From the IMG/VR virus record IMGVR_UViG_3300023174_000651, positions 1-23,374 of that record: 23,374 bases of DNA; one strand, given 5' to 3'. The notes beneath the pieces are model-generated. The model saw only the letters and a list, made by a program, of their open reading frames with translations, was not told the origin of the DNA and ran no database searches. Position 1 is the first letter of the stretch. Each line of letters begins with the position of its first letter. The position numbers and the translations under genes were made by a program. Source of the DNA: a virus. Below, one piece after another: positions 2,934 through 23,374 of the stretch.

Positions 2934-3749
2934 TCATGCATCACCCGCAACAGTCAACTCACGGTCTGGCACATAGTCGTGAACGATGAAACCGTTCTCA
3001 ATCTTGCCCACCCACATCTCGGGTATCCATGTGAAACCCCCAGACCGCAGACGCCTCATGTGCGCCCTGCGCTTGTGTCTGGCCGGGCTGGCGTGCGTGC
3101 CGCCCTTGTGCGGTTGCCTGACCTGCGGCTCTGGCTTCAACTCGATGGTGTTCCACGAGTACACAAGCGGCTGGTGCTTGGCCCTGCGCTTGCGGTTGAT
3201 GAATTCCAAACCCTTTGCCATGTGGGCAGTGACCACTTGCTCGGTGGTATGCGCACGCAAGTTAACCAGACAGGCGTAGTTGACCGCACTGATGCAAGCG
3301 TCCTCGTACAGTTGCAGGGCTTCGCGCTCGGCCATGCCACCCTTCTTTGCCGCATCCATCAACTTCTGGTGGACGACAACATTGGTGCCCTCGGGCGCAT
3401 TATCCTCACTACCGACAACCCTGACCCGTTTTTCGGTAACGATCACGAGCGGGCTGTTGAAGCCATCATTTGTCCACAGCATGGCGGCGGCACCTTCATA
3501 GCCGCCAAACTTGATGTATCTGTCGTAGGTGAACGCAATGTCAGGCCACGCGGGTTGAATGATCGCCATACTGTCGGAGGGCGTCATAAACTCGTTGAGA
3601 TGGCGCATCTCGGTATCCCAGCCATGTTGACGGCCAATCTTGGTGAGTTCCTCTTCAGCATGGTCGCCAAGTTCTGTGAAGTCGAACCATGTGTAGTCTG
3701 CGGCGTCGAACGCCACCTTTGATGCAAGGTCTGCCACTCTCGGATTCAT
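2934..3749 (-). CDS. Phage protein of unknown function (271 aa)
   Basis: ATG 3749 is preferred to an in-frame start at 3812: AAAGGAAAACC lies upstream and the ATG overlaps the stop of the 49-aa zinc protein (ATGA). The product is soluble. The N-terminal two thirds (residues 1-190) show mixed alpha/beta character, including WPDIAFTYDRYI and AAAMLWTNDGFNSPLVIVTE. The C-terminal about 60 residues contain a basic stretch HKGGTHASPARHKRRAHMR followed by GGFTWIPEMWVGKIENGFIVHDY. A similar basic-then-aromatic tail recurs in phage early proteins in my experience, with no known function. It may bind nucleic acid; this is inferred from the basic tail only. Confidence 0.75.
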   Translation of the reverse strand: MNPRVADLASKVAFDAADYTWFDFTELGDHAEEELTKIGRQHGWDTEMRHLNEFMTPSDSMAIIQPAWPDIAFTYDRYIKFGGYEGAAAMLWTNDGFNSPLVIVTEKRVRVVGSEDNAPEGTNVVVHQKLMDAAKKGGMAEREALQLYEDACISAVNYACLVNLRAHTTEQVVTAHMAKGLEFINRKRRAKHQPLVYSWNTIELKPEPQVRQPHKGGTHASPARHKRRAHMRRLRSGGFTWIPEMWVGKIENGFIVHDYVPDRELTVAGDA

Positions 3750-3895
3750 TCTGGTTTTCCTTTCGTAAATCCCTTGCGGTTTTTGAGTTGCGCACAAGTC
3801 TGGCAACGCCACATCACGCGGCCATCACTCGTGCGCACCTTGGTGTCTGCTGGCCGTATGCGGCACACCTGACAGGTCTTTGCCTTTTCAGTCAT
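3746..3895 (-). CDS. Zinc-ribbon mini-protein (49 aa)
   Basis: This is a 49-residue protein with two CxxC knuckles: CQVC at residues 8-11 and CQTC at 31-34, about 20 residues apart, the classic treble-clef/zinc-ribbon layout. The C-terminus is strongly basic (KNRKGFTKGKPE). The start ATG 3895 overlaps the previous gene by 8 bases, and the stop makes ATGA with the 271-aa gene. The longer in-frame open stretch to 4114 is Arg/Ser-rich shadow sequence. Likely a nucleic-acid or protein-binding accessory factor; its target is unknown. Confidence 0.75.
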   Translation of the reverse strand: MTEKAKTCQVCRIRPADTKVRTSDGRVMWRCQTCAQLKNRKGFTKGKPE

Positions 3896-4118
3896 TGCGC
3901 TCTTTCGCCCATTCGTTGCGGATGGCCGCCACCCAGCCAGCATTGAAGTGGCGTCGCACCTCTTCGTTGCTGGCCGTGCGCGGCGCACCCATGTTGTCGA
4001 GGTAGTCGTTGAATGCATCCTCGAAAGACTTGACGCGCACCGGGCGGACAAACTGCGTCTGCTGTGCCTGCCTGCGCTCCAGTTCCTTCCACGCCTCTTC
4101 CTCGGCCTGATCAATCAT
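3888..4118 (-). CDS. Small phage protein, unknown function (76 aa)
   Basis: The product is 76 residues with an N-terminal charged helix (MIDQAEEEAWKELERRQAQQ) and a second helical part ending HFNAGWVAAIRNEWAKERND. The pattern of a helix ending in FNAGW, followed by another amphipathic helix, suggests a small helical bundle. GAAGGGGG lies upstream of ATG 4118. It overlaps both neighbours by 8 bases (3888-3895 and 4111-4118), consistent with translational coupling. No family recognised. Confidence 0.7.
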   Translation of the reverse strand: MIDQAEEEAWKELERRQAQQTQFVRPVRVKSFEDAFNDYLDNMGAPRTASNEEVRRHFNAGWVAAIRNEWAKERND

Positions 4119-11952: not shown

Positions 11953-11980
11953 TAGGAGAGTGGCAACTGCTTCTACCGCA
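11953..11980 (+). repeat. Short repeat, copy 2 at the convergent junction
   Basis: TAGGAGAGTGGCAA (11953-11966) and TTCTACCGCA (11971-11980) copy the RBS and gene-start region at 9935-9965, but no ATG follows in this orientation. The second block contains the stop codon of the transglycosylase gene on the other strand. Probably a relic of a recombination or duplication event at the operon boundary. Confidence 0.6.
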
Positions 11981-13697
11981 TCAATGTTAACCCGCCCCGC
12001 GCCTTCTGCGGGGGCTGTTTGGCTTTGGCTTCCTCTTCCATCTGTCGCGTGCGGTACAGATCGTAGGCTGTGGTAGCAAGCCCGCCAACGATGCCCAAGC
12101 CCTTCAGGAAGGCCGTAACGGGTGTGCCGGGGGGTAGCATAGCCATACCGTCCAAAACGGCTTGTACGCCCGATAGAACGGCCCCAGAGGTATCGCCCTT
12201 CTCGTACCTGTTCAATGCTTCTGCGGCGCTCAAGCCCATGCCTGCACCAGCAAGGGCACCAGTAAACGGCACCTTCTGCGCCACGGCACCAATCTTGCCC
12301 AGCCCGCTTGGCGCGGCTTCTTGGGCTGTCTTCAGTCCGGCTTGGGCCGCAGTTGCTTTGGTTTGCGCCTCGCGGGCGGCACTCTCGGCGGCGGCAGTGC
12401 CGCGCTGGCGAGTTGATTCGGCACCCTCAAACGCTTTTTGACTAGTTTGAACATTAGCGCGTGCTGACTCAACTTGCGGTGTGACTGCCTGCACCCGCTC
12501 TCGGCCCAATTCCATCCACCTATTGCGACGGGCAGTCTCTTCGGGTGACAGCACCAATTGCTCGGGGCCAGTCCCGGTCATCTGCCAACTTCCCATGCCA
12601 AGTTGCTTTTGACGGGCAATGTTCTCAGCGTTGCGGGCGGCAATATCTCCAGCCCCCATACCGCGAGGATTCTTGCCAGTGGTCATGTCCTCGACCTGCG
12701 CCAGCATGGCTTCTGGCGGCAATTGCCCCGGCATCTTGCGGGCGTAGTTCTCGGCACCAGAAGCGCCGGGCAACTTGGCCCGATCAGCGGCTGTCGGCGT
12801 CGTGTACCTAGTAGATTGCTGGGTCGCCCACTCAAGTTCACGCTCCAGTGTCTGGAGGGCGCTTTGTGATGCGCGATACTGCTGTTCAAGCCTTGCGGCT
12901 TCTTGAGCCAAACGCTGGGCGGTTTCGGTCGATGCACCGGATGCGGCATTTGCCGCCGCTCTGGCTGATTCGTATGCGGCCTTGGCATTGTTTACAGCGG
13001 CTTCCGCCTCCTTCAGCCCCTTACCACCAAACGCCTGCGTGACAAGACCAGTAACAGCGCCAGCGGCCCCAAGGTCTCCGCCGCTGATGTCGCCCTGTTC
13101 ATTTCGCACCAAACGAGTTGCCGCTTTGTAAGAATCAGGCATCCCCTCAAGGTTTGGGCGTGCGCTTGGCGGCATTTCGTTAATGTCTTTTGGCAAAGGC
13201 TCCACTTCACCAAAACGGCTGGATGTGGTTTCGGGGGGGGCTTCCCCTTCCGCCTTTTGCTCCGCTGGCGCGGCACCAAAGCCACCGTTTTTTCCGATGT
13301 CGATCACATAGTCCAGACCCTTGGGGCCAACCGACTTGAGGTCGCCACCAGACTTGATGTATTGGTCAGCAACACCCGGCCCTTGGTGATACGCAAGCAA
13401 AGCCGCCTCGGGCGACTTGTACTTGTCGAGGTAAGTCTTCATCAGCCGAGCGCCACCTTCAATGTTGGCGTTCAGGTCTCGCGGATCGCCCAACTTCATC
13501 TGCTCTGCGGTGCTGGGGCGAATCTGCATCACCCCAAAGGCATCAGAGGTTTTGTCGGCGCTTGGGATGTGCCGGAACCCAGACTCACGATAGGCTTGGG
13601 CCAGCAGTAGGTTGGGATCGACGCCGTGCTTTTTCGCGGCCTCGACCACCATGTCAGCAACTTTTAGTTGTTGTTCGTCAAGTTTGCTGAAGTCCAT
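11973..13697 (-). CDS. Lytic transglycosylase/internal virion protein (574 aa)
   Basis: Residues 12-140 form an SLT lytic transglycosylase domain: NLLLAQAYRESGFR with the catalytic Glu at residue 38, AFGVMQIRPSTAEQM (53-67), NANIEGGARLMKTYL and ALLAYHQGPG (98-107). It would cut peptidoglycan during DNA injection. The rest is long: low-complexity Pro/Glu (150-180), coiled-coil Ala/Gln/Glu-rich sections (about 225-300 and 395-470), a hydrophobic Ala/Gly region (about 475-540), and the C-terminus ARGGLTLMR. Such a domain mix fits an ejected internal virion protein rather than an endolysin. It is the last gene of the late operon; its start shares one base (TAATG) with the previous stop. Confidence 0.85.
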   Translation of the reverse strand: MDFSKLDEQQLKVADMVVEAAKKHGVDPNLLLAQAYRESGFRHIPSADKTSDAFGVMQIRPSTAEQMKLGDPRDLNANIEGGARLMKTYLDKYKSPEAALLAYHQGPGVADQYIKSGGDLKSVGPKGLDYVIDIGKNGGFGAAPAEQKAEGEAPPETTSSRFGEVEPLPKDINEMPPSARPNLEGMPDSYKAATRLVRNEQGDISGGDLGAAGAVTGLVTQAFGGKGLKEAEAAVNNAKAAYESARAAANAASGASTETAQRLAQEAARLEQQYRASQSALQTLERELEWATQQSTRYTTPTAADRAKLPGASGAENYARKMPGQLPPEAMLAQVEDMTTGKNPRGMGAGDIAARNAENIARQKQLGMGSWQMTGTGPEQLVLSPEETARRNRWMELGRERVQAVTPQVESARANVQTSQKAFEGAESTRQRGTAAAESAAREAQTKATAAQAGLKTAQEAAPSGLGKIGAVAQKVPFTGALAGAGMGLSAAEALNRYEKGDTSGAVLSGVQAVLDGMAMLPPGTPVTAFLKGLGIVGGLATTAYDLYRTRQMEEEAKAKQPPQKARGGLTLMR

Positions 13698-15577
13698 TAC
13701 TGTCTCCCTTTTGCCGCTTCGCGCTCACGCTTCTCGCGCTCAAACTTCTGTAGCGGGGTTTCATTTGCTGGCGGCTTTGAAGCCGGAGCGGCTGGCGTAG
13801 ATGGAGCGGCGGGCGGCGCTGATGCCGCAGGCTTCTCTGTCTTGGTTCCGGGGAAATACTTGTCGTTGAGTTTTCCAAGGTGATCGTTGTAATCCTTCTG
13901 AATTGCTTTGAATTCTGGATCACGCTGGAAGTCTTTGACCATTTTGCCGGGATTGTTCTTCTCCCACTCATAGAACAAATCGGCAACTTGTCTGTCGTAC
14001 TCGGCACGAGCCTTGATTGCCTCGGCTTTTGCCGCCGCAACAAGAGGCGTGTCCGAAATGCTCGGGCCAAGATTTCTGACAATCACGCGCTCGTTGTTTG
14101 AGACTGCGCCCTGACCAGTCAAGAACATTCTTGCGTAAGTCAACTCCATCTCAGACGCATAACGAGCGGCCTGCAATGCGGCGTTAATTTCTGTATCAGT
14201 GCCGCCAACCTTACGAACAGCGTCTTCGATGCCCGGAAAGTTGATCGGCCCCTTGGGTGTACTCACGCCTTCTCGGATAGCACCAAGAACTGCCGCTCGA
14301 ACCGTCGGCTTCTGGAGAACACCAAAAGCGCCCTTTGTTTCGGAGTTGGTTGCAAGTTTGTACATTTGATCCGCATTGAGTGCTTGACCAAATGCCGACT
14401 CCCCGGCAGAGTAAATCCGCCCCTTCTGCTCGTCATTTCTCTTGATCTCAAGTTCCTGCGTTTTGGACTCGGCCTCTTCACGCAGTTTCTTTTGACCGGG
14501 TGTTTCCATGCCGCTGATGACAGCGGGCTTTCCTTGTCCAGAAGTTGGAGCCGCACCGGGGGCCGCGCCGGGGGCGCTTCCGCCCGTAGTGGGCTTCTCG
14601 CCGGGCGTGTAATCGACGCCGCCAATGCCTCGTCCAGCGTAGTACCTTGCAAACTGATCTGCGCGATCTGGGTGACCAATCGGGAATTTTTCGCTTAGTC
14701 CCTCGATTTCTCTGAGCATTCGCTGAGTAATCTTTTGCGTCCCAACAAAAGGCAACGGGGCTTCAATTGGCTGGTCGAGATAAGGATCAGCCTTCAAGTA
14801 AATGTTGTTGTCGCGGTCATACATACCCTGCGGTGTGCTGATAAAACGCTCACGCTGGTACTTGCCTCGCTCCATCTCTTGCTTGCCATACTCGGGACTG
14901 ATCAATCCAGCAACCCGAATGCTGTCGGGCGTGACTGGCCGCTCCCTACGCTCTGCCGGGGCACCACCAGCAGGCGCACCTGCCGGAGCCGCGCCACCTG
15001 CGGGAACTCCTCCAGCGGGGGCACCGCCTGTGGGCGCTCCGCCAGCGGGAGTTGGGCCAGCGCCAAGCGTTGTAATTTCCTTGGGGTCGTACCCCTGCAT
15101 ATACATTTGATGCTCAAACATCAAACGCTGGTTTTGAATCTCAGCCTGCTTTTGCGCCAGTTCCAACTTGGCCTTGTCGGCGGCTTGCTTGCGTGCCAGA
15201 ACCTTGTCGGCATCAGTCGCATACGCCTCTGCCGCATAGCCAAGAGACTCACCGAATCCGCCAGTCCTTGTGGGCTTTAGGAAACCAGACGCCGCCGCCA
15301 TCAACGAGGTGTCGAACGGCGGGTTCATGCGGCTGTCAAGGCTGTTCTTGAGCGCCTCGATCTGAGCATTCAATGCCGCCTCTTGCGCACGCTTGTTACG
15401 CAAGGCTTTCTGCATGAAGTCTTCTTCAGGGGCTTCTTGCTCAAGACCAGAGATGCGTTGTGCGGCCTGCGCCGGGTTGGGTTGCTGGGCAGGCTGTTGT
15501 TGTTGCGGCGCGGGTTTGGCCGGAGCCATCGCCCCAAGCCCGCCCACAGGTGGTTGCTGTTGTGGTGCGATTGCCAT
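13697..15577 (-). CDS. Putative virion/internal protein with a collagen-like Gly/Ala/Pro tract (626 aa)
   Basis: The protein starts with a Gln/Pro-rich leader (residues 1-40). A helical domain follows (45-165), including SLMAAASGFLKPTRTGGFGESLGYAAEAYA, which resembles a recurrent motif in phage late proteins. Then comes a Gly/Ala/Pro repeat (173-208), a mid domain of mixed fold (210-300), a second Gly/Ala/Pro linker, and a helical C-terminal part (370-580) with a Pro/Ala-rich, then highly charged end. No named domain is recognised. Its position between the transglycosylase and the 310-aa gene suggests an internal or ejection-associated structural protein. AAGAGGTAAGAC-type spacing separates it from its neighbour. 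Confidence 0.8.
   Translation of the reverse strand: MAIAPQQQPPVGGLGAMAPAKPAPQQQQPAQQPNPAQAAQRISGLEQEAPEEDFMQKALRNKRAQEAALNAQIEALKNSLDSRMNPPFDTSLMAAASGFLKPTRTGGFGESLGYAAEAYATDADKVLARKQAADKAKLELAQKQAEIQNQRLMFEHQMYMQGYDPKEITTLGAGPTPAGGAPTGGAPAGGVPAGGAAPAGAPAGGAPAERRERPVTPDSIRVAGLISPEYGKQEMERGKYQRERFISTPQGMYDRDNNIYLKADPYLDQPIEAPLPFVGTQKITQRMLREIEGLSEKFPIGHPDRADQFARYYAGRGIGGVDYTPGEKPTTGGSAPGAAPGAAPTSGQGKPAVISGMETPGQKKLREEAESKTQELEIKRNDEQKGRIYSAGESAFGQALNADQMYKLATNSETKGAFGVLQKPTVRAAVLGAIREGVSTPKGPINFPGIEDAVRKVGGTDTEINAALQAARYASEMELTYARMFLTGQGAVSNNERVIVRNLGPSISDTPLVAAAKAEAIKARAEYDRQVADLFYEWEKNNPGKMVKDFQRDPEFKAIQKDYNDHLGKLNDKYFPGTKTEKPAASAPPAAPSTPAAPASKPPANETPLQKFEREKREREAAKGRQ
14954..15061 (-). repeat. 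Gly/Ala/Pro coding tandem repeat
   Basis: Within the 626-aa protein, residues about 173-208 are tandem PAGGA/PTGGA units (AGGAPTGGAPAGGVPAGG and similar). At DNA level this is a short imperfect GC-rich tandem repeat. It probably acts as a flexible or polyproline-like linker between two domains. Confidence 0.8.
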
Positions 15578-15580
15578 GTC

Positions 15581-16513
15581 TTACCTCTTCATCTTGATAG
15601 AGCCGCCGCGTGCCAGATACGCACGAGCCTTGGAGCCACGAGCGGCGCCACCCTTTTTCATCATCACTGCGCCGCCATCCTTTTGACCAGTGCCGCGTGC
15701 AAACGAGCCAAGGCCCGCAAGCAAGCCAGCGATCTGAGACAGCGGGCTGTTGGAGTACGCGCCAGCCTCGGGGCCAACCTTCTGGGTAACCTGTCCGGTG
15801 GGAATCTGGTAGCCACGCATTAACTGAGAGAAGGCTTGCGTCTGCGCCATCGGGTAGTCCAGCATCTTCTGGCCCAGCGCCTGCTGTTGACCGCCGTACT
15901 CGCTCATGGCCTTCAGACCACCCAGACCCAGTTGCTGTTGCTCTTGGCCCAGTTGCGTGAACGCCTGACCGGATTGCAGGGCGCGACTCAAGTCAGCCTG
16001 CGCAGTCCTACCAGCCTCGGTGTAACCTTGCTGGAGGGCTTGCATCTGCTTACCAAGCAGATCGGACTGAAGGTCGCGCAGAGCGTTCCCGGTGATCTGC
16101 TGTTGACGGCGTGATCCATACTGACCAGAGCCGATAGCCGCCGCGCCAAGGTTCGGCAGGATGTTCTCGCGGATGCTACGCTGTTGCAAACGACCCATTT
16201 CTCCCACCACCGCATTGGTGTATGGGTTCATGTAGTCGGCCACCACATCGGGCACCGTGGTAGCGCCAGCCTGACCCAATAACTGGGAAGACGCGCCCAA
16301 CGAGCCAGCGCCAGAGAATGCCACATCAGGCACCATCTGGAAGGCTTGCTGTTGCAGTGGACTGAAGCCAGCCACACCGCCTTGCATGACGGCGTTCTGG
16401 CCGAGGTTGGCGATGTCCTGAAGGTAGTTGGTGTAGAACTCCGGCGCAGTCGCTTGCGTTTCTGTCGTCGTCGTTACATCTGGTAGGGGGTCACCCTGAA
16501 ACAGTCCAGCCAT
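15581..16513 (-). CDS. Putative virion structural/ejection protein (310 aa)
   Basis: The product is helical and Gln/Gly/Ala-rich. Residues 20-120 include EFYTNYLQDIANLGQNAVM and YMNPYTNAVVGEMGRLQQRSIRENILPNLGAAAIGSGQYGSRRQQ, a pattern recurring in uncharacterised late proteins of environmental phages by memory. Residues 120-240 are helical with LGQEQQQLGLGGLKAMSEYGGQQQALG. The C-terminus is basic and Gly-rich and ends ARGGSIKMKR. The ATG shares a base with the stop of the 1292-aa gene (TAATG), indicating coupled translation. No known domain; an internal virion or tail-tube-associated role is inferred from context. Confidence 0.75.
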   Translation of the reverse strand: MAGLFQGDPLPDVTTTTETQATAPEFYTNYLQDIANLGQNAVMQGGVAGFSPLQQQAFQMVPDVAFSGAGSLGASSQLLGQAGATTVPDVVADYMNPYTNAVVGEMGRLQQRSIRENILPNLGAAAIGSGQYGSRRQQQITGNALRDLQSDLLGKQMQALQQGYTEAGRTAQADLSRALQSGQAFTQLGQEQQQLGLGGLKAMSEYGGQQQALGQKMLDYPMAQTQAFSQLMRGYQIPTGQVTQKVGPEAGAYSNSPLSQIAGLLAGLGSFARGTGQKDGGAVMMKKGGAARGSKARAYLARGGSIKMKR

Positions 16514-19500
16514 TATTTGGCTCCTTTCAGATAGGAAGTCAGAGCCTTGGTCTTAGGCGGAATCTTGTTGATCGGCGCAGACCGTTTGTGTGCCCTGATG
16601 TTTTCGCGGAACTTGTTTAGAGCCTTGGCCCCAGCCTTGGTCGAGCCGTTGCCGATCTGGGCTACGGTCTCTGCGTCAATCACATACTCGCCATCGGCCA
16701 GCATCGCGGGGATGTCGTCCGACTGACCGTCGCCGGGGCCATGCACCGGAGCGCCATGCCGGAAGTTCAGGCGACCGTTGGTAATAGGCACATTCGACCA
16801 AGCAGGCAGGCCACCGCTCTTCATGCCAACGCCAGAGGGCGGCGTGCCCTGCGGGATGGAAGGCTGATTAGGCGTGAGACCAGTCTGCGGCAAAGGCATC
16901 TGCTGGGGAACTTGCGAAGCGTTCTGCGCGGCCTGCGGAGGCATACCTTGCGGGGCCGCAGGTTGAGGAGGCTTGAACGGCGACGGGTTGCGCAGATTTT
17001 GAATTGGATCGACAGCCTTGCCAAAAGTGTAGTAGGTCTGAGGCGCGGCTTGACCAAGCCCGCCTTGCGGGGCAACTGGCGCAGGCATACCGCCTTCAGC
17101 CATGTTCTGCTCTTCGCCGATGTCTTCGCTTGTGTACTCTTGGTCTGGCCCGAACTCTGCCTCGTCGTAACGAGCGTAGTCGCCGGGGTTGACTTCGTTA
17201 AAGCCCGGAGCGTTCAGGTTCTGATACAACTCGGTGCCGTACAACTCAGGCATCTGCTCGGGTGTGCCGTACTCGTCGTAACCAACATAGTTGGCGGGGC
17301 CGATACCGAAGTCAGTGGTGCGCGGGTTGATCACACCGACTTGCGACATATCGATGCCACCGCCGGAGCCACCACCGCCACCGCCGAATAGGTCGGTGTT
17401 GCCAAGCAGACTGCCCAGCACAGCGCCAGCAATACCAGCGCCACCGTAGGTGTTCAAGCCCTTGAGCAAATCTTGGATTGCGCTTTCGCTTGCGCGTTCA
17501 GTTGCGCGTTGCTCGGCGAGTTCGCGGCCAGTTGGGCCTCGGTCGATGTCAACGCCGCCAGAGCCGCCAGCCCCCGTTACTTTTGTGGGGCCAGTTACTC
17601 GACCACCACCAAGCGGGATCACATTTCCTTGCGGATCATAGACAGCGACAATGTTGCCATAGCCATCTGTGACCATAGCATTGCCTTCGTCATCGTATGT
17701 GGTCTGGTAAGCATCAACAGTCTTGAAGATGTTGCCGTCTGCGTCGTAAATGATCTGCGAACCATCGTCCATAGTCTCGACGCTGGAGCCGTCATCGTAG
17801 TACACGCGGTTGCCGCCGCCCATTTGAGACAGACCACCAGCGGGGGCGGTAGGCTGACCGTTTTGAGCCACGACATCGCCGTTTGCGTCAGTCACAAACA
17901 CAATGTTGTTGTCAGCGTCAATGGTCACGGTGCTACCGTCGTCATCCACATAAGTTGCGGTGCCGTCGCCGTTGCTGACAAACCCAGCGGGGAAGCCATC
18001 GGGGTTTGGTGTCGAACGAACATCACCGCTAGACACAGCAGAGGTCGTGGGAATCTGATCGAGGAACGATTGCAGTTGAGTCGGGTCAGCGCCAGTCAAA
18101 CGGCTTTCTCTCTGATACTCAGCCGCCGTTTGTGGATTGCCATACTGCTGGCCGTTTGCGCCGATCGTCAACCCACGAGAGAACATCGGCGTATCTGTGC
18201 CAACTCCATCAAACTGAGCCTCGGTCACATCCAGAACATTACCGTTTGCGTCGTAAGTAATGGATGAGCCATCATCAAAGTATTGCGTGATAGTGCCGTC
18301 CGGGTTCTCTTCTTCCGCGACCGGATCGCCTTCTGGCGGGTCTTCATCAGAGGGGTCTCCGCCACCAGCCATCTTGATCAAGCCACCCTTACGCTCTTCT
18401 GGCGGCTCTTCGTAGTAATCGTCGCCAGAGCCGTCATCCTCTGTGTAGTCGTCTTCGGTGTAATCGTTTGGAGATGTGCCGTCGGCATAAGCGATCAACT
18501 CGCCATCCCAGTTGTACACATTGCCGTCGGCATCCGTCTGCGTGTAATCAGAGTGATCGCCCTCTGCAATCAGGTTGCCATCCCAATCGTATTGGTTGCC
18601 ATATTCATCGGTGAACACATAGTCGGAGTGATCTGCTTCGTAAAGCAGGTTCCCGCCAGCGTCGTATTGATTGCCGTACTCGTCGGTGTAAGCAACATCA
18701 GCAACAGAGCCTTCGTCGCTGGCATCATCGGCCATCGTGCCATCGGCATATTGGACTAGGTTGCCGTCGGCGTCGTACAGGTTTCCCTCGTCATCAGAGA
18801 ACAAACCGTCGGTGTCGCCAGTAGTGTCGTAGCCAGTGGTGGTGCCAAGCCCGGTGACGACATTACCATCCTCGTCAACAACGGTGTCAGCGCCGCCAGC
18901 CTGAACGACATCGCCGTTCGCGTCATACAGAACACCATCGGTGTCGGTGTAGGAAACGACATTGCCATCGGCGTCATAGTTGACGACAGTTCCATCGTCA
19001 AGCGTCTGGGTTGATCCGCCGCCAGCAACTGCATCTTCGCCGCCGCCAGCAACAACGGTGTCTTGATCGCCAACACCAACCCAAACTGGGTTGTTGTTTT
19101 CGTCAAGTTCGTATCCGGGTAACAAGTTACCCTCATCATCGTATGCAATAACAGCGGTGTCTCTAGATTCAGTGTCTTCCGTCTGATCCCCCTGACCAAC
19201 ACCCGCGCCCGCACCCGCTCCTGTGGTCTTTGTGCCGCCCGTCGTTTTTGTTCCGCCAGCCGGAGTTTTGGGGCCAGTTGCAGTAGGCGCTTTGGGGCCA
19301 GTACCTGTAGGCGTTTTAGGGCCAACTGTTCCGGTGCCAACTCCTGTTTTGCCGGGCACGAATGGGGGTGTACCAACATTGGTGCCGCTAGTTCCTGTGC
19401 CCTTGACAACAGAAGTCACGCCGCCAGCACCAGTGGTGCCGCCCTTGGTTCCGGTTCCGCCCGCAACAGTTGTTCCACCAGTGCCGCCCGTGCCACCTTT

Positions 19501-20391
19501 TGTGGTTCCACCAGTACCGCCAGTACCTCCGGTGCCGCCAGTGCCGCCCTTAGTGGTGCCGCCAGTGCCACCAGTACCGCCCGTGGTCTTCGTGCCGCCC
19601 GTCAGTTTGTCGATGACGAACTTGGTTCCAGCGCCAAGAGCCGCGCCAGCAAGTGCGCTGGTAAGCGTGCTACCAACCTTGGAGCCTCCGGTGGTCTTAC
19701 CACCCGCACCAGTCGTTGTACCAGTGGTCTTCGTCCCGGTGCCCGTGCCAGTAGAGGTCAGGGTTTTGCCAGCAGTTCCGGTGGTGCCAGTGGTCTTGCC
19801 AGTGGTTGCTGTGGTCTTGCCTGCGCCAGTGCCCGTAGAAGTCAAGCCAGTGGTGCCCGTGGTCTTTGAGGTCAAACCGGGCAACTTAGATGTGGTGCTG
19901 GCCGCAGTTGTGCCAGCAGTCTTGCCAGTAGTTGTAGCGCCGGGCTTTGTTGCGGTTGTGGCGGCAGTTTTTGCGCCAGTAGCACCCAAGCCGCGCCCAG
20001 CAGGCTTTGCCGCGCCAGACGATCCCTTCAGCGCTGATGTCACAGCGGTCTTTGGTTGTCCGGCAATGTTTCCGAACTTGTCCACCTTCGCGCCGCCAGC
20101 GCCACTCATAGCGCCCATGCCGCCAGCGCCTGCCGCGCCACCAGCCATCGGGCCTGCGCCACCAGCGCCGGGTCGGCGTCCGCCAGCAACTGCGGCACCG
20201 CCATCCATCGGCGCGAAGCCCTGCGCATCAGCCATCGGGCCGTAGCCGCTAGAGCCAGCCAGTTGTCGAATCGCGGAAGTGATGGGGGTCTCGCCACGCA
20301 GTGCGGCGGCACGATCACCAGCGCGGGTGTCGCTGTATCTTTGGAATCGTGGCAATTGGTTAACTGCTCGACGCTTTTCAAGAATTGCCAT
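16513..20391 (-). CDS. Giant Gly/Thr-rich protein with YD-like repeats (1292 aa)
   Basis: Layout: residues 1-60 mixed; 60-100 Gly/Ala; 130-400 almost wholly Gly, Thr, Lys, Ala and Ser; 415-660 repeats of the type YDADGNVV/TDEYGNQYD, including a 25-residue unit at 568, 593 and 618; an acidic stretch to 667; KGGLIKMAGGG (668-678); further YDxxGN repeats to 920; a helical region (955-1000); Gly-run (1003-1012); Pro/Gln-rich (1100-1190). The C-terminal domain starts HGPGDGQSDDIPAMLADGEYVID (1217-1239), a motif I have seen at the end of other phage late proteins. ATG 20391 follows AAAGGATAAAAATC. Likely a virion protein, perhaps an ejected or fibre-like shell component; not identified further. Confidence 0.8.
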   Translation of the reverse strand: MAILEKRRAVNQLPRFQRYSDTRAGDRAAALRGETPITSAIRQLAGSSGYGPMADAQGFAPMDGGAAVAGGRRPGAGGAGPMAGGAAGAGGMGAMSGAGGAKVDKFGNIAGQPKTAVTSALKGSSGAAKPAGRGLGATGAKTAATTATKPGATTTGKTAGTTAASTTSKLPGLTSKTTGTTGLTSTGTGAGKTTATTGKTTGTTGTAGKTLTSTGTGTGTKTTGTTTGAGGKTTGGSKVGSTLTSALAGAALGAGTKFVIDKLTGGTKTTGGTGGTGGTTKGGTGGTGGTGGTGGTTKGGTGGTGGTTVAGGTGTKGGTTGAGGVTSVVKGTGTSGTNVGTPPFVPGKTGVGTGTVGPKTPTGTGPKAPTATGPKTPAGGTKTTGGTKTTGAGAGAGVGQGDQTEDTESRDTAVIAYDDEGNLLPGYELDENNNPVWVGVGDQDTVVAGGGEDAVAGGGSTQTLDDGTVVNYDADGNVVSYTDTDGVLYDANGDVVQAGGADTVVDEDGNVVTGLGTTTGYDTTGDTDGLFSDDEGNLYDADGNLVQYADGTMADDASDEGSVADVAYTDEYGNQYDAGGNLLYEADHSDYVFTDEYGNQYDWDGNLIAEGDHSDYTQTDADGNVYNWDGELIAYADGTSPNDYTEDDYTEDDGSGDDYYEEPPEERKGGLIKMAGGGDPSDEDPPEGDPVAEEENPDGTITQYFDDGSSITYDANGNVLDVTEAQFDGVGTDTPMFSRGLTIGANGQQYGNPQTAAEYQRESRLTGADPTQLQSFLDQIPTTSAVSSGDVRSTPNPDGFPAGFVSNGDGTATYVDDDGSTVTIDADNNIVFVTDANGDVVAQNGQPTAPAGGLSQMGGGNRVYYDDGSSVETMDDGSQIIYDADGNIFKTVDAYQTTYDDEGNAMVTDGYGNIVAVYDPQGNVIPLGGGRVTGPTKVTGAGGSGGVDIDRGPTGRELAEQRATERASESAIQDLLKGLNTYGGAGIAGAVLGSLLGNTDLFGGGGGGSGGGIDMSQVGVINPRTTDFGIGPANYVGYDEYGTPEQMPELYGTELYQNLNAPGFNEVNPGDYARYDEAEFGPDQEYTSEDIGEEQNMAEGGMPAPVAPQGGLGQAAPQTYYTFGKAVDPIQNLRNPSPFKPPQPAAPQGMPPQAAQNASQVPQQMPLPQTGLTPNQPSIPQGTPPSGVGMKSGGLPAWSNVPITNGRLNFRHGAPVHGPGDGQSDDIPAMLADGEYVIDAETVAQIGNGSTKAGAKALNKFRENIRAHKRSAPINKIPPKTKALTSYLKGAK
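18475..18690 (-). repeat. 25-residue tandem repeat in the 1292-aa protein
   Basis: Residues 568-639 hold three units of about 25 residues, each with D-[EA]-x-G-N-x-Y-[DN]-x-[GD]-G-[NE]-L (starting YTDEYGNQYD, FTDEYGNQYD and QTDADGNVYN). The period is exact (568, 593, 618), which suggests recent duplication or strong structural constraint. Related, less regular units precede and follow it. Confidence 0.8.
19426..19602 (-). repeat. GGT-type tandem repeat coding for Gly-Thr runs
   Basis: On the minus strand this region is a near-tandem run of GGT/ACC/GGC codons translating to TGGTGGTGG and TTKGG units (residues about 264-322). It will be prone to length change by slippage and hard to assemble. 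The plus strand shows an open frame of Val/Pro repeats only because of this composition. Confidence 0.85.
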
Positions 20392-20396
20392 GATTT

Positions 20397-22328
20397 TTAT
20401 CCTTTACCTTTTACGAGAGCAGTCAACCCGGAAATGTTTCCAACCGGGGTCAACTTGCTTACATCTACCTTTTTGGGCGGAGCGGTTTTTACAACCTGCT
20501 TGGGTATCAACTTTGATACATCCACCTTCTGGGGAACAACATTTGTGCGAAGTGCAGACAAGGCGTTGCCAGTCAACTGACGCGCCACGGTGGGCATCGG
20601 AGTTGTCTTGCGACCTGCGGCTTTGTTGATCGTATTCTTCGCGCCAGTAGACGCGGTGTTCACAACCGTCTTCTTGATGATGTTGCCTAAGAGGTTTGAG
20701 CCAGCGGCGGCACCAGTTGCGGCGGCACCAGTTGTGGTTCCAGTTGTCGCGGCATTGGCCGTGGTGTCTTGATCGCCAGCCAATTGATTCAGGCCACCAA
20801 GGTTAGTTGCGTCAGCCGCTGATGTAACGGTGGGCAGGGTCGTGCTGGTGCCAGCATCAATCAAATCTTTTTGTGCCTGAGTCAGACCGCCCGTCACCGT
20901 AATGTTCTTGGCAGTAGTGTCTGCTCCAGCGCCGCCCGTCACCGTGCTTACAGCGCCAAGACCGCCAGTGGTGGTGTCCTCGTCCTGATCAACATCGCCA
21001 GTTCCAGCCTTTACATCAGAACCGCCAGTCAAGGTAAACGAGTCGTCAGCACCAGAGCCAAACAAGTTGGTGGTGTCGGTCGTATCTGCGGCCTTTGTGC
21101 CACCAGTCAGGCTGGTGGTGTCCAGCACTGTGTCATCAACCTGATCTGCGCCAGTCGTGCTTGCGGTGCCAGCAAGGCTTGCATCAGATACAGCAGTCAA
21201 CCCACCAACGGTGGTGTCGGTGTCTTTATCGTCGTTGGCTGAATTGATCTCATCAACCAGCGTGTCAATCTCAGAGTCCGAACGACTTGTTCCGCCACCA
21301 CTTGTAATTGCATCGCTGGCGCTGTTCACAAATGAACCAATCTGCCCGGTAACCGCGTTGCCAAGTTCATTGATGCCAAGGTTCAAAAGACCAGTGGTTG
21401 CATCTTTACCCTTGATCAAATCTTTAGTGACAGAACTTGCGGCTCGGCCAGCAAGGCTGGAGCCAGTCTCATCAGTAACTTCACTGCCAACAAAATTGCC
21501 CGCAAGGTTTGCGCCGATGTTCTCAAGGTTCAGATCGCCGCCACGAGCAACTGTTCCAAGAGTGGATGCGACAGTTTGGCCGATGACCTTGGAACCAGTC
21601 TCTGCGGCAACCTCGGAGCCAACAAAACCAGTACCAACAGAAATCAGGCTGTTCGTCAAAGCCTGACCAAAATCTCCACCGTTGGTCGCGGTGTTGATTG
21701 CAAGTTTTCCTGCAAAGTTTTGAAGCGTTGCGTCAGCGCCGGGAAGAAGCGTTTGACCAATCGTGTTGACGATATTGGTTGCACCCTGAGATAGCGTTTG
21801 CACCGCGCTGGATGCGGCATCAAATGTGCTGGTTGCGGCTTCAAGAAAACTTGATGCTGTGACACTGCCAGATGAGGCGGCAGACACAGCCTCCACAACG
21901 GTAGAGCCTTCTGCAACCAAAGAAGCGCCTGTGGCGGCGGCTTCAATGCCAGCGCCAGCCTCAATCAAAGTTGTAGCGGCAACAGTTTCTGCGCTTGCGA
22001 CAGCAGTAGCGGCACCAGTAGCCTCAAGAACAGCGGTGCCAGACGCAACCGCTTCAGCCGCACCAGCGACCTCAAAGATTGATGCGGCGGTTGCGGCTTC
22101 TGCCGCAGTTCCGGCCACAGCCGCTTCAGCAACACCAACTACAGCGGCCTCTGCCGCCAATGCGCTTAAAGCAAAAGGAGCCGCAATAGCGGCCACCAAA
22201 AGAATCGGGTTTTCTGCGACTGTCTCGATGACATCTTCGGCAAGGTCAATAACCCCCTCTACGACATCACCGACGGCCTCAAAAACATCACCGATTGCAT
22301 CACCGATGGCTTGAATTACAGCACTCAT
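20397..22328 (-). CDS. Ala-rich membrane-associated late protein with internal repeats (643 aa)
   Basis: Residues 1-40 form acidic amphipathic helices (AIGDVFEAVGDVVEGVIDLAEDVIE). Residues 41-72 are a likely membrane segment (PILLVAAIAAPFALSALAAE), followed by an Ala/Val/Thr/Glu-rich helix to about 210. Residues 214-309 hold two related units around TGFVGSEVAAETGS and GNFVGSEVTDETGS. Residues 366-480 hold a repeated DTTxGGLxAVS unit. The basic C-terminus repeats KVDVSKLIP/KVDVSKLTP (601-628). ATG 22328 has GGAGG upstream and overlaps the previous gene by four bases. Hydrophobic, repetitive, and beside an SLT protein, it may form a membrane channel during DNA ejection; this is inferred. Confidence 0.75.
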   Translation of the reverse strand: MSAVIQAIGDAIGDVFEAVGDVVEGVIDLAEDVIETVAENPILLVAAIAAPFALSALAAEAAVVGVAEAAVAGTAAEAATAASIFEVAGAAEAVASGTAVLEATGAATAVASAETVAATTLIEAGAGIEAAATGASLVAEGSTVVEAVSAASSGSVTASSFLEAATSTFDAASSAVQTLSQGATNIVNTIGQTLLPGADATLQNFAGKLAINTATNGGDFGQALTNSLISVGTGFVGSEVAAETGSKVIGQTVASTLGTVARGGDLNLENIGANLAGNFVGSEVTDETGSSLAGRAASSVTKDLIKGKDATTGLLNLGINELGNAVTGQIGSFVNSASDAITSGGGTSRSDSEIDTLVDEINSANDDKDTDTTVGGLTAVSDASLAGTASTTGADQVDDTVLDTTSLTGGTKAADTTDTTNLFGSGADDSFTLTGGSDVKAGTGDVDQDEDTTTGGLGAVSTVTGGAGADTTAKNITVTGGLTQAQKDLIDAGTSTTLPTVTSAADATNLGGLNQLAGDQDTTANAATTGTTTGAAATGAAAGSNLLGNIIKKTVVNTASTGAKNTINKAAGRKTTPMPTVARQLTGNALSALRTNVVPQKVDVSKLIPKQVVKTAPPKKVDVSKLTPVGNISGLTALVKGKG

Positions 22329-22777
22329 TGCTTACCTCCCCTTGCAGGGCCAAGCACGAGGGTTACTTGCAAACCTCCGCCCTCAAGTTTTTTGGCGGCG
22401 TATCCCATGCCTTCACGCACCGGATTGCGCGAAATCATTTTGAAAAGCCCCAACAAACTTGTGTCGTTGAATTGAGTCACAAGAACATCAAACCCCACCT
22501 TATAAGCGGCATCAGCAAATACACGGCTATTTTGCAAGAAGTTAACTGCCGTGTCAGCATTTAAGGCGCGGAAATACCCGTATCCGGGTTGCTTGCTTTT
22601 GTGACAAATGAAAATCGTGTTGCCCTCACGCATCTTCCATGTGTTGGGCATTTTGAATTCGATGGTCAACATCTCTTTGACCTGCTTTATTGGGCGGTCA
22701 ACCTTGGTGTTGCGGGCGGCGATGTCGATGATCTGCTCACCACTCAACTTTTGTACCTTACTGTCTATCATCTGCAT
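22325..22777 (-). CDS. Conserved-looking late protein beside ketoacyl synthase (150 aa)
   Basis: ATG 22777 follows AAGGGG and lies one base after the ketoacyl synthase stop. The protein has an N-terminal helix (KLSGEQIIDIAARN), a central mixed alpha/beta portion (TIFICHKSKQPGYGYFRALNADTAVNFLQ), FDVLVTQFNDTSLLGLFKMISRNPVREGMGY, and a final GGGLQVTLVLGPARGG. This strand-helix mix might be an acyltransferase-like fold (GNAT-type) but no catalytic motif can be confirmed. It could also be a virion assembly factor. Close packing with the ketoacyl synthase suggests functional linkage; the substrate is unknown. Confidence 0.65.
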   Translation of the reverse strand: MQMIDSKVQKLSGEQIIDIAARNTKVDRPIKQVKEMLTIEFKMPNTWKMREGNTIFICHKSKQPGYGYFRALNADTAVNFLQNSRVFADAAYKVGFDVLVTQFNDTSLLGLFKMISRNPVREGMGYAAKKLEGGGLQVTLVLGPARGGKQ

Positions 22778-22778
22778 C

Positions 22779-23374
22779 TCATAGCCCCTTGAAGATTGCG
22801 GCGGAATAGATATTCCCCATGCCAGCCGCCAAACTCAAAATTAACCCATCTGGGGCACGAACCGATTCCGAAAGGAAAACCGAATCGCTTTCCGTTCTGT
22901 TTTCGATTGCAGGCACATAGCCAGATTTTAAGTCGTCTAGCAGTAAAAGTGTCTCCAGCAAGCCGCTCGAACCCATTGTGTGGCCGATTTTCTGCTTGTA
23001 AGATGTGGCTACAAACTGATCGAGCGTGTTCAGGAGGGCGGCTTTTTCCGCCCGGTTATTGGATTCGGTTCCGGTGCCGTGGGTTTTGACAATCCCAATC
23101 TCGTCCGACATCACGCCGGAATAGTGCATAGCGCCGTTTATTGCCTTGGTGAAGCCCTGACCATCCTCCAGTTGCCCAATCGCGTTTGTGGAGGCTTCTG
23201 ACGCGCTGTAGGCACCAATCAGTTCGGCTTTTGGCTCGGCATCCAGTTTTCCTACGGCGTAGTCAGACTCAAACACCGCCAGAGCGGCACCCTGTCCTAC
23301 CCGGAAGCCAAAATTCTTACCATCAAAGGCGGAGGGCTTGACCCCCGCTTCTTCCTGTTTCTGGGTCAGAACCG
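22779..23374 (-). CDS. Beta-ketoacyl synthase (KAS II/FabF-like), cut by right edge
   Basis: The frame is open from base 23372 to the stop at 22779, giving 197 visible residues of the C-terminal half. It shows KPSAFDGKNFGFRVGQGAAL (11-31, as PSAFDG...G.GaaalvlE in FabF/FabB), THGTGT (97-102, catalytic His98), SYKQKIGHTMGSSG (124-137, Lys126 and His131 with the five-residue spacing of FabF) and conserved E140. The usual GFGGTN loop is replaced by AGMGNIYSA (183-191). The Cys nucleophile lies off the window. These enzymes join a malonyl-ACP-derived unit to an acyl chain. A start at GTG 23276 is possible on paper but would remove conserved residues, so the true start is to the right. Confidence 0.9.
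   Translation of the reverse strand, partial: VLTQKQEEAGVKPSAFDGKNFGFRVGQGAALAVFESDYAVGKLDAEPKAELIGAYSASEASTNAIGQLEDGQGFTKAINGAMHYSGVMSDEIGIVKTHGTGTESNNRAEKAALLNTLDQFVATSYKQKIGHTMGSSGLLETLLLLDDLKSGYVPAIENRTESDSVFLSESVRAPDGLILSLAAGMGNIYSAAIFKGL

Follow-up and report, generated by a model that had tools for sequence, protein, structure and literature searches.

Fatty acid synthesis genes are already on record as auxiliary genes of phages: fabG-acpP-fabF has been reported in Rhodobacteraceae prophages and an acyl carrier protein (ACP) gene in Alteromonas phage R22Y (PMC8224337, PMC11705849). These earlier cases are isolated and host-like, with the bacterial fabG-acpP-fabF order or an ACP alone, whereas the family described here is a divergent phage clade of beta-ketoacyl synthases (KSs), encoded in virion or replication-type operons as part of an ACP-KS pair that is stable across a large, mostly uncultured phage group. 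The openly licensed papers that we searched contain no description of this ACP-KS family or module in phages.

The phage KS resembles FabF and FabB (KAS II and KAS I) in its Ketoacyl-synt N and C domains, its Cys-His-His triad and lysine, and its fold (Z of about 39), but shares 17 to 28% identity with them, is shorter (about 370 versus about 410 aa), and carries AAGMGN instead of GFGGTN. Short KSs of about 370 aa also occur on a Natrinema plasmid, in coronafacic acid synthesis (Cfa3), and in cispentacin synthesis (AmcF). They have about 24 to 26% identity to the phage KS, and the one from the Natrinema plasmid, with an ACP directly upstream, is organized like the phage pair. The three, however, have AcpS, FabG, or other pathway genes as neighbors, and their branches in our tree are long and their placement unsure. 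A further point of comparison is provided by the toxin-activating acyltransferases, which lipidate RTX toxins and, in the case of CdiC, CdiA in an acyl-ACP-dependent manner (PMC8510554). Like the LuxI-type AHL synthases, they are GNAT-fold users of acyl-ACP; the likeness to our locus, a GNAT fold beside a source of acyl-ACP, serves as an idea only.

A ketosynthase gene at the end of a viral contig

The window, i.e., the whole stretch of DNA that was analyzed, comprises the 23,374 bases of a viral record in IMG/VR. Five of its features are considered here:

22779..23374 (ORF 22779-23372), minus strand: C-terminal 197 aa of a KS (Pfam, PDB, full-length relatives)
22325..22777, minus strand: 150-aa GNAT-fold protein, the next gene after the KS (AlphaFold2 model, synteny)
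20397..22328, minus strand: 643-aa protein with a hydrophobic N-terminal region, a putative ejection or membrane-active virion protein (synteny, N-termini compared)
16513..20391, minus strand: 1292-aa low-complexity protein with a tape-measure-like C-terminal stretch (PHROG 6090, E = 1.6e-7)
11973..13697, minus strand: 574-aa SLT transglycosylase virion protein (Pfam SLT, E = 8.2e-16)

The KS frame is open at the contig end and thus truncated: the C-terminal half is retained, with both His and the Lys of the active site visible, and the contig breaks off before the N-terminal ~173 aa, where the active-site Cys is located, and before the upstream ACP gene. The initial annotation had placed a condensing enzyme of the FabF/FabB type in the late operon of a phage; the motifs that it listed, THGTGT, SYKQKIGHTMGSSG, and AAGMGNIYSA, were all found in the ORF. 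It had also noted that the KS gene ends one base before the next start, in agreement with the following gene beginning at 22777. The enzyme class is borne out by a match to Pfam Ketoacyl-synt_C (PF02801; E = 2.6e-14, 53.7 bits against a cutoff of 20.8), by PDB profile matches that were, among those listed, KAS or PKS ketosynthases (the best being FabF, 7.7e-15), and by the complete triad of the relatives described below. In NCBIfam, the top match for this C-terminal part was AmcF.

The ketosynthase family is phage specific and keeps its catalytic residues

A scan of IMG/VR with the window KS yielded about 320 relatives, the best 80 of which have 74 to 91% identity to it. Wherever the contigs of these 80 fetched loci extend downstream, the following genes are in unchanged order. 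The recurrence of a colinear cassette in independent viral contigs rules out a mis-assembled host contig or host contamination, a possibility that had been raised for the contig end. PHROG 35856 matches the phage KS over most of its length (E = 6.6e-39). Matches in phage collections at 24 to 32% identity, which came from unannotated records of doubtful phage origin, were left out.

Full-length phage KSs have 364 to 375 aa, and a full-length relative scored above the gathering cutoff of 20.8 bits for both PF00109 (41.9 bits) and PF02801 (47.4 bits). The best scores among models were obtained with FabF models, and the score against the NCBIfam FabF equivalog TIGR03150 was 102 bits, far below its cutoff of 493.75. 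In an alignment that included E. coli FabF and FabB, Streptomyces KS-alpha, and CLF, the Cys (inside a conserved TDxxAC), His, Lys, and His of the phage proteins fell on C164, H304, K336, and H341 of E. coli FabF. All four residues are kept in 116 of 116 distinct phage KSs, the few pattern misses having been checked by eye, so the concern that the Cys hidden from the window might be missing does not apply to its long relatives. An inactive KS of the CLF type, with Gln at the Cys position and a KS-alpha partner, was rejected, as CLFs lack the Cys that the phage KSs possess and as one KS was found in each of 14 long records.

Replacement of the GFGGTN gating loop, to which the initial annotation had drawn attention, is real and family-wide, with AAGMGN(I/V)Y at this place in nearly all phage KSs; from its sequence we would only infer a shifted substrate. 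The N-terminal third of the phage KS is short and diverged, and this feature, together with the altered loop, could mean that the reaction itself is altered, for example to acyl transfer or decarboxylation. Pairwise dN/dS values of 0.03 to 0.08 indicate that the KS genes are under strong purifying selection.

In a maximum-likelihood tree, 17 phage KSs grouped into a single clade (100/100) whose stem measures 3.4 changes per site; as judged from this tree, the clade contains phage sequences only and is remote from FabF, FabB, KS-alpha, and CLF. Because long branches meet in the tree, no cellular KS can be singled out as the closest relative. The AlphaFold2 model of a full-length phage KS (from locus L002; pTM 0.89) has a predicted thiolase-type fold over the full length of the protein. 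It aligned with the type II PKS ketosynthase AntDE over 348 residues (VIA Z 40.3, rmsd 2.8) and with FabF at a VIA Z of about 39, and we consider the two matches tied (range, 38 to 40).

An acyl carrier protein gene adjoins the ketosynthase gene

We found an ORF of ~93 aa encoding an ACP directly upstream of the KS gene in every uncut locus; in the late loci, the overlap between the two genes is 4, 10, or 13 bases long. An ACP gene in the vicinity, for which the initial annotation had recommended a search, thus adjoins the KS in the relatives. When the ACP profile was compared with the PDB, the matches listed were acyl carrier proteins (best, 5e-5); PF00550 was matched by 7 of 11 members, with single sequences scoring weakly (best, 3e-4 in Pfam). 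The phosphopantetheine-site serine motif reads DSLD in 113 of 114 ACPs and DSMD in the remaining one. What is new here, as far as gene content and order tell, is a phage KS paired with its own ACP in constant adjacency.

We looked for further enzymes of the pathway in 14 long relatives (37 to 72 kb, not certified complete) and detected no AcpS, FabG (adh_short_C2), FabD, fatty acid desaturase, or 4HBT thioesterase. With no detectable phage AcpS, FabD, FabG, or thioesterase, the module would therefore need host enzymes. Each of the 14 records contains one KS, and a heterodimer with a second KS was rejected for lack of the second KS. As for the host, a scan of genome contigs gave one phage contig with the cassette (JAGYJQ010000016.1, our locus L082), which is binned in a Balneolaceae MAG; the binning may reflect a link to the host or a contamination of the bin. 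Cultured Caulobacter phages share tail-region genes at 36 to 44%, with no KS or GNAT match and no ACP gene in the slot.

The gene after the ketosynthase encodes a predicted GNAT-fold protein

The GNAT-fold gene occupies an identical place in every late-operon relative with contig coverage. The AlphaFold2 model of the 150-aa protein (pLDDT 90.6) aligned with the GNAT structure 8iyo (VIA-align Z 11.6, rmsd 2.6, 125 aligned), consistent with a GNAT fold. In a viral structure library, the model matched uncharacterized phage proteins and some labeled "Internal virion protein A," and its Foldseek list contained the AHL synthase TofI. The protein itself has no Pfam match, and its relatives have scattered weak ones only. 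Use of acetyl-CoA is doubtful, since the strand-helix turn that usually carries the RxxGxG/A acyl-CoA-binding motif reads R-A-L-N-A-D-T. A Pfam match to toxin-activating acyltransferases was sought in 24 GNAT-fold members and found in none at E ≤ 5, and when we searched by eye for a His/Asp dyad like that of these enzymes, His59 was not kept in all distant members. The GNAT-fold protein may be only structural.

The 643-aa protein encoded downstream has no Pfam or PHROG match. Among the proteins downstream of the GNAT-fold gene, 141 of 146 have Ser, Gly, or Ala after the initial Met.

The ACP-KS pair occupies two genome positions

We then evaluated the composition of the cassette in 166 distinct loci. 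ACP, KS, and GNAT genes were found together in 134 loci, the GNAT gene was alone at the cassette site in 21, and ACP and GNAT were found with KS absent in 2; contig-cut partial loci contained ACP and KS (7 cases) or KS and GNAT (2 cases). In most relatives, the ACP-KS pair immediately precedes the GNAT gene of the late operon and follows virion-protein and endolysin genes. Two of the GNAT-only records have ACP and KS elsewhere in the same genome. The second position of the pair is flanked by a C-terminal helicase fragment on one side and, on the other, by a small protein and then DUF3310, in what appears to be a replication-type region ("early" and "late" are labels that we took from gene context, not from expression). 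A scan with the replication-region KS revealed 28 loci arranged in this way, and in all those whose contig reaches far enough, the ACP gene lies directly upstream. Six records (G017, G020, G023, G024, G026, and G027) combine a replication-region ACP-KS with a GNAT gene, and no GNAT match was found in the remaining replication-region records checked, most of which are short fragments.

A tree required only two label changes between the late and replication-type positions. Since the sister lineage has the pair in the replication-type region and the GNAT gene still in the virion operon, ACP-KS appears to be a relocatable unit. The virion-operon setting proposed initially therefore holds for most relatives, but the tie to virion genes is weakened by this lineage, which argues against a strictly virion role.

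Possible functions of the module

We propose, from the conserved residues and gene order, that the KS is phage specific and catalytically competent and that it probably works with the dedicated ACP encoded directly upstream. Most likely, the module would plug into the fatty acid synthesis of the host and make a phage-directed acyl-ACP. Host AcpS would add phosphopantetheine to the phage ACP, which would be loaded by host FabD or by acyl-ACP exchange; the phage KS would, with good likelihood, perform a decarboxylative Claisen condensation; and host FabG, FabZ, and FabI would complete the cycle, or the product might stop at the beta-keto stage. The outcome would be a phage-owned pool of acyl-ACP in the infected cell. 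Several hundred phages keep the KS intact, under strong selection, and immediately after an ACP gene of their own, which suggests that a special acyl chain is made during infection. The module thus offers a testable case of a virus that directs acyl-chain synthesis, reshaping host lipids or lipidating its own proteins.

Where the acyl chain would go is a matter of more tentative proposals. By analogy with known GNAT-fold users of acyl-ACP, our leading guess for the acceptor, a possible one, is an ejection or virion protein to which the GNAT-fold protein would transfer the chain; a host membrane lipid comes next and is somewhat doubtful. Acylation of a phage protein by way of a special acyl-ACP, for insertion into the host membrane, can be entertained with some reserve. 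It is favored by the adjacency of ACP, KS, and GNAT in the 134 of 166 loci, by the two KS-less loci in which the ACP gene immediately precedes GNAT, and by the N-terminus of the downstream protein, hydrophobic and with a small residue after Met in the proportion given above, but a small second residue is a frequent feature of highly expressed proteins. A precedent exists in the toxin-activating acyltransferases, which lipidate their targets in an acyl-ACP-dependent manner, as CdiC does CdiA (PMC8510554), but to which the GNAT-fold protein bears no sequence match; furthermore, the ACP-KS pair of the sister lineage is far from the GNAT gene, and GNAT is also found without an adjoining ACP-KS. 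The more specific proposal that the virus would use its own ACP and KS to build the chain and the GNAT-fold protein to attach it to an ejection or virion protein, for membrane entry or anchoring, seems to us unlikely. The lineage with the pair in the replication-type region and the GNAT-only loci instead favor a host-directed role, and we regard both readings as live. As a form of auxiliary metabolism, ACP-KS might boost or change the elongation of host fatty acids so that the membrane suits assembly, entry, or lysis, with no dedicated acceptor. Such a role requires only host partners, which these phages lack, is compatible with either genome position, and has already been proposed for phage ACP (PMC11705849, PMC8224337). 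However, a KS that is far from every cellular KS sampled (stem of 3.4 changes per site) and has kept its own ACP is unlike a recently captured host gene, and the altered loop is kept throughout the family; on the whole, we find this explanation rather unlikely.

Two other explanations have less to recommend them. ACP and KS might form a minimal type II polyketide-like pair whose product would act as a signal or inhibit host competitors or defenses, as the structural match to a type II PKS ketosynthase (tied with FabF) and the AmcF match of the C-terminal part would allow; this is improbable, given that the 14 records yielded neither a CLF partner nor a malonyl transferase or 4HBT-type thioesterase and that FabF models give the full-length KS its best scores. 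ACP in E. coli has partners outside fatty acid synthesis, such as MukBEF (a case listed among the references of PMC11705849), and a phage ACP, with the KS as its partner, might accomplish a nonenzymatic takeover by binding host ACP-interacting proteins, e.g., SpoT or MukBEF. Two records do keep the ACP with KS absent, but the complete KS triad in 116 sequences implies selection on catalysis and makes such a takeover very improbable.

Additional observations on the related loci

One of the records with ACP and GNAT, L286 (65.7 kb, KS absent), has an ACP gene (3710-3991) that retains DSLD and immediately precedes the GNAT gene, as does L287; the arrangement suggests a link between ACP and GNAT without KS. 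In the GNAT-only loci L163 (4063-5001) and L165 (4261-5553), the ACP-KS slot is occupied by another gene, of 312 and 430 aa, respectively, with TIEQMYQTVLGR-type stretches and, by eye, a resemblance to DUF4214. The virion operon of the window encodes long low-complexity proteins (16513-20391 and 13697-15577) with Thr/Gly-rich and Ala/Pro/Gly-rich repeats; such proteins diverge strongly among relatives, whereas the KS and a 310-aa protein are conserved. MW202545 (Manatee Spring) also belongs to the family and contains the cassette, in the order ACP-KS-GNAT and at 64% identity. The KS start of this record (MW202545.1, our locus L081) is annotated downstream, at 19635, and a longer frame with the conserved N-terminus runs from 19479 (19479-20579). 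Its annotation also lists genes for a GroES-like chaperonin and a 2OG-Fe(II) oxygenase.
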